From positions 124,001 to 188,000 of the forward strand of contig NZ_JALJCL010000002.1 in the NCBI RefSeq assembly GCF_023698535.1: 64,000 nucleotides of DNA, read 5' to 3'. A model generated the notes under the pieces. It was not told the DNA's origin and did no database searches. It saw nothing but the letters and a program-made list of their open reading frames with translations. Of the stretch, positions 29,555 through 33,420 are shown one piece after another. This stretch comes from Halorientalis regularis. GTDB taxonomy: Archaea; Halobacteriota; Halobacteria; Halobacteriales; Haloarculaceae. Positions within the stretch are counted from its first letter, which is position 1. Every line of letters starts with the position of its first letter. Made by a program: the position numbers and the translations under genes.

Positions 29555-30634
29555 CTACATCAGGTCGTCGAGTTCGTCGTTCTGGAAGGCGTCTTCGGCG
29601 CTCTCCTGAGGGTCCTCCTGCTGTTTGCTGGCCTCGCGGGCCCGGTCCATGAACTCCTGGACGCGCTGGGAGCGTTCGACGCCGCCCAGCAGGACCAGCG
29701 CGGCGATGCGCTCGCTACTGAGTGGGAAGTCGCCACCCCGAACTTCGAGGCTACCGGTCTCCTCTTCGAGCCACTTGCGGGCGCGTTCGACACCTTTGCG
29801 GGCGATGCGGTCGGGGTGGCCGGCGATCACGAGGAGGGCTTTGTCGGCTTCGACGGCCTGGGGGAGGGAGGTGCCGGTGAGGAGGGCTTTCCGCGCGGTG
29901 GAGGTGATGGCGTTGATGTTCTCGCCGGCGTCCTCGTCGGCCAGCGCGGAGGCGTAGCCCAGCGAGGCGATGCCCCCGTTTTTGAGCGTGTTGATGATCT
30001 CGCTGGAGTCGACGACCGATTCGCCGACGCCTTCGACGATCTCACCGGCCGCCAGCAACAGGCCGACGCGTTCGGCGATGCGGTCGTTGATCGCCGCGAA
30101 CCCTTCCTCGATGCTCTCCTCGGAGGTCTTCCAGGCGTCGTTGTCGATGACGAGGACGGAGTCGGCTTCCCTGGTGAATGTCTTCAGCGAGCGGCCGGCG
30201 TTGGCCTGGTAGATCGCACCCTCGTCGCGGCCGGGGAGGACCGCGAGGCCGTAGATCGGCATCGTGTAGACGCGTTTGAGTTCGCGGGCGAGCATGGGCG
30301 CGCCGCCGCTCCCGGTGCCACCGCCGAGGCCGGCGACGACGAAGACGGCGTCGGCTTCGCTGGTGACACGGCCGTCGAGTTCGTCCATGACCTCGGTGGC
30401 CTCTGCCTGCATGATCTCGGCCCCGAGTTCGTTGTCGCCACCGACGCCGTGTCCTTTCACCCGGTCCTGCCCGATCAGCATCGTGTCGATGTCGAGATTC
30501 TGGAGGTCCGCACGCGCCGTGTTGACCGCGAAGGCACCCTGGACCGCCTCGAATCCGCGGTCGTAGTCGAATTCCGCGAGGGCCTGCGCGATCTTCCCTC
30601 CTGCTTGTCCGACACCAATCAGGACGACTTTCAT
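29555..30634 (-). CDS. cetZ: CetZ tubulin-like cytoskeletal GTPase
   Basis: CetZ proteins are FtsZ/tubulin-superfamily GTPases that shape haloarchaeal cells and affect motility rather than division. 359 residues: N-terminal nucleotide-binding IGVGQAGGKIAQALAEF, the tubulin signature GLGGGTGSGGAP (GGGTGSG at 104-110), and an acidic C-terminal tail (QQEDPQESAEDAFQNDELDD). The GVGGDNELG and VNTARADLQNL segments distinguish it from FtsZ. Start ATG 30634 has a TATA-like TTTGATTAG about 23-32 bases upstream. Which CetZ paralogue it is cannot be decided here. Confidence 0.93.
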   Translation of the reverse strand: MKVVLIGVGQAGGKIAQALAEFDYDRGFEAVQGAFAVNTARADLQNLDIDTMLIGQDRVKGHGVGGDNELGAEIMQAEATEVMDELDGRVTSEADAVFVVAGLGGGTGSGGAPMLARELKRVYTMPIYGLAVLPGRDEGAIYQANAGRSLKTFTREADSVLVIDNDAWKTSEESIEEGFAAINDRIAERVGLLLAAGEIVEGVGESVVDSSEIINTLKNGGIASLGYASALADEDAGENINAITSTARKALLTGTSLPQAVEADKALLVIAGHPDRIARKGVERARKWLEEETGSLEVRGGDFPLSSERIAALVLLGGVERSQRVQEFMDRAREASKQQEDPQESAEDAFQNDELDDLM

Positions 30635-30681
30635 ATCATCACCAACGTGAGTCCGACTAATCAAAGGTGGGGGCGGGCCGA

Positions 30682-32172
30682 CTACCGCTTCATATCGAGA
30701 TCGAAGTCGAAGACCAGCTCGTTGCGCCCCGCCTCGGCCGGAATCCCGAGTTCGGCGTTGATCTGGTTGCTGATGTTGATGTATCCGTAGACTTCGCCAC
30801 AATCCTTGGCACTCCCGACGGCGAAGTCGTTGGAGACGACGGTGGTCTCGTTGGCGTCGTTCAACCGCATGCCCGAGACGAGGTCGGTCGACGAGCTCGG
30901 TGATTTCGGCTCGTAACTTTTCTCCGTCGAGAGCCGCAGCGGGACGTTCGGGATGTGGCAGGTGTCGTCCGAGATCGGGTCACCGCGTTGCGCCCACGGG
31001 ACGCCGACGTGGTCGACGTTCCAGACGGTGACGTTTATCTCGGCGGTGCCCTGGCCGGTGATCTCACCCGTCGTCAGGTCGAACGTGCCCGACACCCCGT
31101 CGGTCGTGGTGATGTTGGCGGCGTAGTATGCGGCACCGACCGCCGTGTCGGTGATCGACCCGGTGACCCGCGAGGTCTGGAACTCGCCCTCCCAGGTGTC
31201 GGTCTCCGCCGAGACGTTGCCGGTCAGGACGATGCACGGGTCGATGGGCAGGTAGTCCGGGTGTTGCTGGACGTACTCGCCGGTCGGCTTGAAGTTCCGA
31301 CACTCGGTGAAGTCGATCACGAACGAGTCGTTGCCGATCCCGGTGTGCAGATACCCGGTCTCGCCTTCCACGTATCCCCTGAACGACGACGGTCGGAAGG
31401 GCAACACCGTCCCGCCGTCGCCGCCGTCCGACTCGTTCACGACGCTCACGCTCGTCGTGGCGGTGTCGTTGGCGGTCGTGACCGTCGCGGTGTACTCGCC
31501 CGCGTCGCCGGGCTGTGGCGTCCACGACAGGGAGACGGTGGTAGTCGCCCCGGCCGCGAGATCGACCTGCCGGCTGTCCGCGGACTGGCCGTCGACGGTG
31601 AGTTCCACAGTCCCCGTTCCGTCTCCGGAACCGGTGTTCTCGACTGTCGCGACGACGGTGAGCGTCGCCGTCTCCTCGACCGGGGAATTCGTGTCCGTGA
31701 CCGTCGGCACCAGAACCACGCTGGCCTGCTCGTCACCGGTATCGCCATCGCCAGTGTCGTCGCCATCGTCGGGTTCGCTGTCGCCGTCGTCACCGAAGTC
31801 GGACGACGGTGCGTCGTCGCCGTCCGTGCCACCGAAGGAGGGGGCGTCGTCGCCGTCACCGAACCCGAAAATCGGCGCGTCACCGTCATCGCCGCCGAAG
31901 CTAAAACCCGGTTCGTCGTCCCCGCCACCGAAGCTGAAGCCCGGTTCGTCACGGTCGTCACCGCCGAAATCGAAGTCGGGACTCCCGTCGGCGAACTCGA
32001 AGTCGACCGACGAGTCGGGACCGGCGTCGAAGTCGAACTGTCGTTCCGTACTGTCGGCGTCGCCGTCGTCGACCTGTGCGACTGCCGTGCCGATACCGGC
32101 GGTCGCGACGAGCGCGGCCGTGAACAGCGTCACCAACGTCACCGTTACCGTGTGGATGTCTGTGTCGTGCAT
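30682..32172 (-). CDS. Secreted protein with FG-rich acidic repeats and CARDB-like domain
   Basis: 496 residues. A Sec-type signal peptide (MHDTDIHTVTVTLVTLFTAA, cleavage near AVAQ at 31-33) is followed by an acidic low-complexity region at about 47-149 with imperfect repeats of the type DDEPGFSFGG, then a CARDB-like beta-sandwich (about 150-265: ATVENTGSGDGTGTVELTVDG). The C-terminal 230 residues hold four cysteines and many N-glycosylation sequons (NVSAET, NITTTD, NVTVW, NETTV, NISNQ). No PGF-CTERM or transmembrane anchor is seen, so it may be released or held by partners. Divergent from the pilus-like locus, with palindromes in between. Function unknown. Confidence 0.75.
   Translation of the reverse strand: MHDTDIHTVTVTLVTLFTAALVATAGIGTAVAQVDDGDADSTERQFDFDAGPDSSVDFEFADGSPDFDFGGDDRDEPGFSFGGGDDEPGFSFGGDDGDAPIFGFGDGDDAPSFGGTDGDDAPSSDFGDDGDSEPDDGDDTGDGDTGDEQASVVLVPTVTDTNSPVEETATLTVVATVENTGSGDGTGTVELTVDGQSADSRQVDLAAGATTTVSLSWTPQPGDAGEYTATVTTANDTATTSVSVVNESDGGDGGTVLPFRPSSFRGYVEGETGYLHTGIGNDSFVIDFTECRNFKPTGEYVQQHPDYLPIDPCIVLTGNVSAETDTWEGEFQTSRVTGSITDTAVGAAYYAANITTTDGVSGTFDLTTGEITGQGTAEINVTVWNVDHVGVPWAQRGDPISDDTCHIPNVPLRLSTEKSYEPKSPSSSTDLVSGMRLNDANETTVVSNDFAVGSAKDCGEVYGYINISNQINAELGIPAEAGRNELVFDFDLDMKR
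31726..32034 (-). repeat. Imperfect repeats coding for D/F/G-rich segment
   Basis: Within the secreted protein, units such as EPGFSFGG, APIFGFGDG and APSFGGTDG recur about every 10-12 residues, embedded in aspartate. The nucleotide sequence repeats as well, with CCGAAGCTGAAGCCCGG-like blocks, so expansion by slippage or recombination is likely. Confidence 0.65.
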
Positions 32173-32227
32173 GGCTGGTAAGTCCCCGCGAGAGCGCCTC
32201 GCGTGCGTCGGAGCCCGCACCGAGCGG

Positions 32228-32257
32228 TTTGTTACTATCGCTGTAGCGCGTAACTAA
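32228..32257. promoter_or_regulatory. Nested palindrome between secreted protein and pilus-like operon
   Basis: TTTGTTAC and GTAACTAA form 8-base arms with one mismatch; between them CGCT-GT-AGCG is a perfect inner palindrome. It lies 56-85 bases upstream of the minus-strand gene and 67-96 upstream of the plus-strand one. A/T content on the left could serve as the minus-strand TATA. Confidence 0.45.
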
Positions 32258-32277
32258 CACCGAACCGGGTATTCAAT

Positions 32278-32290
32278 CTTGGGACCCAAG
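32278..32290 (+). promoter_or_regulatory. Palindrome upstream of the pilus-like operon
   Basis: CTTGGG-A-CCCAAG is a perfect 6-base inverted repeat around one base, 34-46 bases before the ATG at 32324 and just upstream of TTGAAATAC (about -22 to -30), the likely TATA box. Position fits an operator or activator site. Confidence 0.45.
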
Positions 32291-32323
32291 CGTTGAAATA
32301 CCGGTACGGGACCAGCCACGATT

Positions 32324-32926
32324 ATGGACGAAGACGACGTGGAAGCACGGCTCGAAGCGGTCGAACGGGCGCTCGCCGACGGGGAGACGGACCTGGCGGC
32401 GGTCGCCGAGGCCGCCGAACGCGAGCGCGAACTCGACGAACTGCGGGGGCGGGTCGACGACCTCGAATCCCAGCTTACGGACCTGGCTGCCAGCGTCCAG
32501 GCAGTGCGCGGGTACGTCGGCAACGTCCGAACCGTCAACCGCGACGTGGAGCGCCGGGCCGACACCGCCCTCGCCAAGGTCGAAGAACTGGAGCGTCACG
32601 GGACCGACCGCAACCGCCGGTATCCGCACGACGACGCCGATGAAACGGGCCAGCACGATGGCCAGTCACGAGTCGACGGAAGAGACGACGACTCGCCCGA
32701 ATCACCCGGAGATATCGCACGTCGGATCACCGGTCGAGACGAGAGCAAGCAGGAACGACGGCCACCGTGTGACGGGAGCGGTCGTGGCGGCGTGAGACGA
32801 CAGCCAGACCGATCCGAGAGGCGCGCGCATCCACGGGATCGGAGCGATACCGCAACCGGCCCGGGACGGCACGACGACGACGAGAACGGGGGCGGCTTCC
32901 TCTCCGACTTGCGTGACGCGCTCTGA
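32324..32926 (+). CDS. Coiled-coil protein heading the pilus-like locus
   Basis: 200 residues. The first 95 are a heptad-rich coiled coil (EARLEAVERALADGETDLAA, ELDELRGRVDDLESQLTDLA) with no membrane segment; the rest is charged and disordered, ending GGGFLSDLRDAL. I believe it belongs to the haloarchaeal coiled-coil family DUF7310 (number from memory). Its TGA overlaps the ATG of the next gene (TGATG). As the first gene of the locus it may be a cytoplasmic adaptor for the ATPase or platform; that is inference from position. Confidence 0.72.
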   Translation: MDEDDVEARLEAVERALADGETDLAAVAEAAERERELDELRGRVDDLESQLTDLAASVQAVRGYVGNVRTVNRDVERRADTALAKVEELERHGTDRNRRYPHDDADETGQHDGQSRVDGRDDDSPESPGDIARRITGRDESKQERRPPCDGSGRGGVRRQPDRSERRAHPRDRSDTATGPGRHDDDENGGGFLSDLRDAL

Positions 32927-33420
32927 TGCTCCGAGTGGTCGTGGCGGTCGTTCTCGCGTCGGCACTGCTCGCGGCCAGTCTGCCGGGGATCGAGCTGGCA
33001 GCCCGTGAGCGCAGTGAGGCGACGCTCACGGCCGACGCTGACCGGCTCCGGACGGCCATCGCGGACCTCCGGCACCGTGAGACCGCTGTAGGCAACGGGC
33101 CTGGTGCGCGCCGGGTCGTCACGGTCGAGATTCCGGCACGATTCCGGACGACCACCGGTGTCACAGCGCTCTCGCTCGGCGGCGCCCCGGAGCAGGCGCG
33201 TTCGGTCAGTCGATCAGCCGTCGATCTCGCGTGGCGAGTTCATGGCGGCGAGGTCAAGACGCGGCGACTCCCCGGGGTCCGGGTAGCCCACTATCGAGAT
33301 GGCCGTATCCGCGACGAGCCGCTGGTTCTGGAATCGCCGGGTCAACACCGGATCGCGTTGACGCGCATCGAACGCGACGGCGAGCGACTGATCGCGGTCC
33401 GGCGGCTCCCCGAGATTTAA
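32926..33420 (+). CDS. Small membrane-anchored protein of pilus-like locus
   Basis: 164 residues with one N-terminal hydrophobic helix (MLRVVVAVVLASALLAASLP), then GIELAARERSEATLTADADRL, a pattern like the N-terminal alpha-helix of pilin-like proteins, followed by a beta-rich domain (RRVVTVEIPARF, HRIALTRIERDGERLIAV). Probably DUF7311 (from memory). No class III peptidase site (K/R-G before the helix) is evident, so I call it pseudopilin-like only tentatively. A TATA-like palindrome for the next gene overlaps its stop codon. Confidence 0.7.
   Translation: MLRVVVAVVLASALLAASLPGIELAARERSEATLTADADRLRTAIADLRHRETAVGNGPGARRVVTVEIPARFRTTTGVTALSLGGAPEQARSVSRSAVDLAWRVHGGEVKTRRLPGVRVAHYRDGRIRDEPLVLESPGQHRIALTRIERDGERLIAVRRLPEI

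Follow-up and report, generated by a model that had tools for sequence, protein, structure and literature searches.

A gene in the window, a 64,000-nucleotide stretch of the Halorientalis regularis genome, encodes an apparently secreted protein with an aromatic-acidic tract near its N-terminus, and ten such tracts were found in the genus. Judged from sequence, what these tracts have in common is a single kind of aromatic residue set in an acidic chain, and not the FG motif. A cohesive gel, proposed in an earlier note on this DNA, is still our best guess for the tract: at a probability of roughly 0.4, the tract may be a disordered sticker-and-spacer segment and the protein a salt-dependent glue of the cell surface or matrix.

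The FG-rich repeats to which that note drew attention (window 31726-32034) fall within a minus-strand gene and correspond to residues ~47-149 of its 496-aa product. They are real: FSFG, FGFG and SFGG are all present, and the 117-residue tract contains 7 FG and 4 FxFG motifs together with 25 Gly, two Arg, no Lys and no Trp or Tyr, with Asp and Glu making up 36%. Compared with composition-preserving shuffles, the FG count was higher (nominal p=0.0115), as was the number of Phe-x-Phe pairs (nominal p=0.005), and the Phe residues were more evenly spaced (nominal p=0.011). Among the 22 protein-like frames of the window, a small set for background comparison, this protein had the highest Phe content in its best 80-residue stretch (16%, next 10%); for total aromatics including Trp and Tyr, two other frames exceeded it (18.8% and 17.5%). 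A wider background of loci was set aside as biased, these loci having been fetched with tract proteins or FG patterns. The CARDB domain reached 40 bits, above the Pfam gathering score (cut-off 22.7). Start codons and tract ends were set by eye. The signal-like start, likewise recognized by eye, suggests that the protein is secreted, as had been proposed.

Positions of the window gene, its flanking genes and the tractless family members (window coordinates unless a locus is named)
Feature	Position	Strand	Basis
Whole gene, 496 aa	30682..32172	-	open frame and translation; paralogues in same genome
Signal-peptide-like start, residues 1-33	32074..32172	-	by-eye judgement
Aromatic-acidic tract, residues 34-150 (14 Phe, 42 Asp/Glu)	31723..32073	-	composition and spacing counts
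CARDB domain, residues 154-234	31471..31713	-	Pfam PF07705, E 4.8e-10
C-terminal domain with four Cys, residues ~257-496 (~240 residues)	30685..31404	-	alignment A1, invariant Cys; no Pfam family
Flank, outside system: CetZ	29555..30640	-	Pfam CetZ_C and Tubulin; DUF7310 neighbour in 7/7 congeners
Flank, outside system: DUF7310 and DUF7311 genes	32324..33420	+	Pfam; synteny
Tractless members	L039:3489-6164:+, L044:5279-7381:+, L049:2804-5065:-, L046:2809-5115:-		N-terminal domain with FFFFGE stretch

A 16-row profile of the C-terminal domain identified 16 family members and one remnant in five of eight Halorientalis genomes; G001, G003 and G006 gave no match to this profile. Ten members carry a tract, four have a different N-terminus (G000 C40, and one each in G002, G004 and G005), and two are cut by contig ends (G007 C81 and C20). 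The tractless members share an N-terminal domain with FFFFGE (FYFFFGE-like in one) where the tract would be. Among named records, a tract profile matched H. persicus (NZ_FOCX01000016.1) and H. pallida; the H. pallida gene holds a further Phe tract with 17 aromatics, cut by a contig end and kept outside the ten-tract counts. The tract profile A3 matched 3 of 382 genomes, all Halorientalis. It failed to pick up the tract of G007, and the lack of hits elsewhere is therefore only weak evidence of absence. A search of viral contigs gave 14 pattern matches and no relative, and plasmids gave no match; in both collections, records near the window's genome were perhaps left out.

In the nine Phe tracts all 131 aromatic residues are Phe, and each tract has 26-44% Asp/Glu, 0-3 Lys plus Arg and 0-10 Ile/Leu/Val/Met. 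The tenth (G005, L046) is a Trp tract in which all 11 aromatics are Trp and Asp/Glu reach 50%. Together the ten tracts span 26-50% Asp/Glu, with 0-3 Lys/Arg each and 0-10 Ile/Leu/Val/Met per tract, and an aromatic recurs about every 9-13 residues along an acidic Gly/Pro/Asp chain. The emphasis of the earlier note on FG did not carry over to the family: FG exceeded shuffles (p<0.05) in three of the nine Phe tracts (window, G000_C6a and G007_C83) and not in the other six, and G004_C62, whose repeat unit reads PDFSGIGDDGEA, for that reason has a single FG in 144 residues. Phe-x-Phe pairs exceeded shuffles in seven of nine Phe tracts (p<0.05). In eight of the nine, the Phe residues were more evenly spaced than in shuffles (p ≤ 0.011), the exception being G007_C83 (p=0.16). 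Ten Phe columns are invariant across five aligned N-termini despite a differing repeat unit. The Trp tract does not share the even spacing: its Trp residues are mostly paired, with one gap of 34 residues. A Trp-Trp tract pattern matched 6 of 382 genomes. Among the five loci outside G005 that were read, only L137 had two WW[DE] in one frame, which spans 304 residues and has no acidic repeat in the part viewed. The earlier note also suggested that length may vary between strains; in our sample of one genome per species, variation was seen between genes and species, at 5 to 11 aromatic clusters per tract.

The acidity of the tracts raises a further proposal of that note, calcium binding. Clusters of Asp might bind calcium or magnesium, so that the tract gels or folds with metal, and 26-50% Asp/Glu would suit such a role. 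Two of ten tracts showed nominal enrichment of a loose RTX-like GG.G.D motif (p ~0.035), and one of ten showed it for a stricter version (p 0.038). Standard calcium motifs were otherwise mostly not enriched, however: EF-hand/dockerin-like and thrombospondin-3-like motifs rose above shuffles in none of the ten tracts. Metal alone also leaves the single-aromatic rule unexplained. We consider a cation-binding chain very unlikely.

At the DNA level the window tract is mildly repetitive, with 33-bp periods, in line with what had been noted. The four complete units listed for the window carry synonymous differences; G000_C6a and G004_C62 each contain several units with nearly the same DNA sequence. 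Units thus persist and have also been duplicated recently. Tandem duplication by itself gives even spacing, which counts against the glue reading. It is also central to an alternative in which a halophilic surface protein carries the tract as a plain acidic spacer or solubility linker, the aromatics of the tract being inherited from a founding unit and mattering little. The near-identical units agree with this alternative, as do the four of 16 members that lack the tract and the loss or absence of the gene in congeners. However, Phe columns persist where the unit type and the residues beside them change, and in the window most Phe are kept in units that have diverged at synonymous codons. A Trp-only tract in a syntenic gene, described below, is not derivable from a Phe unit by duplication alone. 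We regard the plain spacer as unlikely.

G005 and G007 share a gene order in one orientation: zinc-type dehydrogenase, 7TM histidine kinase, tract gene and tractless paralogue, the last of which runs off the contig in G007. The tract gene at this position is Trp-only in G005 and Phe-only in G007. The C-terminal domains of the two proteins are sisters in the tree (support 0.889), and the parts behind the tract aligned at 49% over 609 residues. In G000, G002 and G004 the dehydrogenase, the kinase and the paralogue are present and the tract gene between them is absent. Such a pair at one syntenic position, one tract Phe-only and the other Trp-only, offers a natural experiment that is already set up. 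A bolder proposal sees the tracts as the equivalent of the FG phase outside the cell in archaea: built on one aromatic and acid, they would be soluble in dilute water and cohesive in brine, and syntenic genes would have swapped Phe and Trp wholesale and kept acid and architecture. We hold this to be rather doubtful; if true, the target of selection would be aromatic cohesion rather than the FG motif. Chance low complexity is unlikely to be the whole story, given the invariant Phe columns, the even spacing, the synonymous divergence and the syntenic Phe/Trp pair. Orthologues without Phe periodicity, which the earlier note had named as the sign of such chance, were for the most part not found, nine of ten tracts being Phe-only and eight of those nine more even than shuffles. 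They were found in part: the Trp-only tract is uneven, 4 of the 16 members begin with another N-terminus, and the only remnant at the window's own locus, in G007, is tractless.

The syntenic pair also bears on a docking role. Each aromatic cluster might be a short linear motif for a folded partner and not for other tracts, which would make the segment a multivalent docking peptide; candidate partners are the S-layer, the sugar coat or a neighbouring DUF6230-like secreted protein. That the clusters are repeated and of a fixed kind fits this proposal. So does the presence, in all five carrier genomes, of a DUF6230-like gene 486-508 bp downstream of a family member (in G007, a member whose N-terminus is cut off). 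The DUF6230 matches lie below the Pfam cut-off (26.1 and 21.9 bits vs 27.5). This second locus is steadier than that of the window gene. However, such genes are also present in the three congeners without the family. A switch from Phe-only to Trp-only tracts, and from PGFSFGGGDDE-like units to units like PDFSGIGDDGEA, would have to be matched by a change in the partner. Docking is, in our estimate, about as unlikely as the plain spacer. At one locus, a secreted-looking DUF6230-like gene (L092:8828-9553:+) and a gene with five PKD matches (L092:10326-12314:+) come after the tract gene.

An acidic chain poor in Lys and Arg that bears a single, evenly spaced aromatic is consistent with a sticker-and-spacer segment, and the salt-dependent glue remains the reading we prefer. 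The stickers would be one kind of aromatic, Phe or, in one relative, Trp, set on the acidic chain near the N-terminus of the secreted protein. At low salt, the acidic residues would hold the chain in solution and in an extended state; at molar concentrations, their charge would be screened and aromatic contacts would be stronger, so that chains could cohere. The CARDB domains may serve as a stalk, the four-Cys C-terminal domain may anchor the protein to the surface or to a partner, and cohered tracts would then cross-link surface or matrix. The sequences themselves show the tract, its recurrence with aromatic and acid combined, the syntenic Phe/Trp pair, the four Cys and the gene neighbourhood; secretion, disorder, cohesion and a surface role we infer. 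AlphaFold2, run on one sequence, placed no helix or strand in the tract, with block pLDDT of 36-53, while CARDB reached 85. For the mature protein mean pLDDT was 42.6, and most of the C-terminal domain was low too, so the low values in the tract are weak evidence of disorder.

Two reports suggest that cohesion of the tract should depend on salt. For a Nup98-type FG chain, cohesion per repeat is given as 255, 283 and 379 J/mol at 150, 300 and 600 mM NaCl (PMC9579204); the highly charged spacers of yeast Nsp1 are described as counteracting cohesion (PMC8245513), which counts against the glue reading. Carrying the rising trend on to 3-4 M is our extrapolation from values measured up to 600 mM NaCl. 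Against the same reading stand the spacing of G007_C83, no more even than shuffles, and the uneven Trp tract. So do the tractless members and the window locus, where each of the seven congeners examined has either no copy of the gene or a remnant. A natural family with a single aromatic sticker on a strongly acidic chain, apparently extracellular in brine, would test which of sticker identity, spacing, charge and salt governs cohesion. Should the function prove ordinary, what remains is a genus-restricted secreted family with a four-Cys domain missing from Pfam.

CetZ adjoins the DUF7310/DUF7311 pair in all seven other Halorientalis genomes, and only in the window's genome does a tract gene interrupt this arrangement (window 29555-33420). 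In six of the seven congeners the CetZ match is separated from the DUF7310 match by 81-132 bp, and this gap held no recognisable relative of the window protein. The seventh, G007, has a 123-aa frame at this locus (L089:2320-2691:-) in which a signal-like start is fused to the last ~73 residues of the tract protein; tract and CARDB are gone. Absence in six congeners and a remnant in the seventh indicate that, on this synteny, the window gene is a lineage-specific and dispensable member of the family.

The C-terminal domain has four Cys that are invariant across 16 alignment rows, and the 14 full-length proteins contain exactly four Cys each, all within this domain. Two disulfides are therefore likely. 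In a Pfam search of the domain, four families matched one member each (best E 0.057), and PDB chains gave no match to the domain profile up to E 10. Predicted with AlphaFold2 from two sequences, the domain had a mean pLDDT of 30.7 and no usable model. A suspicion by eye that the domain is kin to the DUF6230-like neighbour was dropped, since hhalign of A1 against A7 gave a probability of 0.04% over one column. Class-wide, the domain was found in 16 of 391 genomes and 8 of 86 genera. Thirteen loci outside the genus were screened, and the five that passed filters and were read had 0 or 1 FG each. In the window's genome, three paralogues (L038, L039; G000 C6 and C40) have 88-91% DNA identity in the C-terminal domain, and these domains cluster by genome in the tree, a pattern suggestive of gene conversion or of a recent duplication.

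The best-studied cohesive FG repeats are those of nuclear pores, and these avoid charge. The cohesive FG domains of Nup98 are described as depleted of charge, with about one motif per 12 residues (PMC8245513). Like FG nucleoporins of the Nup98 (GLFG) and Nsp1 (FSFG) types, the tracts are Phe-Gly-rich, have a spacing near 12 residues (Nup98 figures, PMC8245513) and hold few other hydrophobics. Unlike them, the tract protein appears to be secreted and archaeal, one member is Trp-only, and FG is not conserved. All ten tracts, at 26-50% Asp/Glu, depart from Nup98-type charge depletion, and the genome is archaeal and lacks a nucleus, the signal-like start again being judged by eye. Kinship with nucleoporins was rejected on acidity and on the lack of FG conservation. 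Among the matches listed in a search of titles and abstracts, a search to which most subscription journals are external, no such protein was described. The words archaea, bacteria and prokaryot- are absent from the main text of a review of FG-repeat proteins (PMC8311347), and origin-of-nucleus papers, in the passages concerned, treat FG repeats in nuclear pores (PMC6449795, PMC10732040).

The protein resembles CARDB-containing haloarchaeal surface proteins in its CARDB repeats. When the window protein served as query, 85 of 145 relatives gave matches, among those listed mostly over the CARDB part; unlike in the tract family, most of these matches extend neither to the tract nor to the C-terminal domain. 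At least 130 of 391 genomes contained a DNA pattern representing three FG/FxFG motifs, and a reversed control also matched, in smaller number. Forty loci (L094-L133) were screened for acidic frames containing at least three F(x)FG, and 13 passed: five of the tract family, three unlikely frames, and five of one other genus with DFGFG and a KaiC-like core. Strongly acidic stretches (44-49% Asp/Glu) with 10-11% Phe were also seen in haloarchaeal frames at L112, L113 and L119. The five frames, from five genomes of the other genus (L129, L130, L131, L132 and L133; genus g53, family f4), have an acidic leader with repeated DFGFG and 11-17 FG per whole frame. Pfam confirmed the KaiC domain in the one submitted (L129:1330-2598:-). 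These KaiC-type ATPases share with the tract proteins an acidic Gly-rich chain, and they differ in being unrelated proteins with no signal peptide by eye. With these DFGFG leaders, acidic FG tracts seem to have arisen, convergently, at least twice in haloarchaea.
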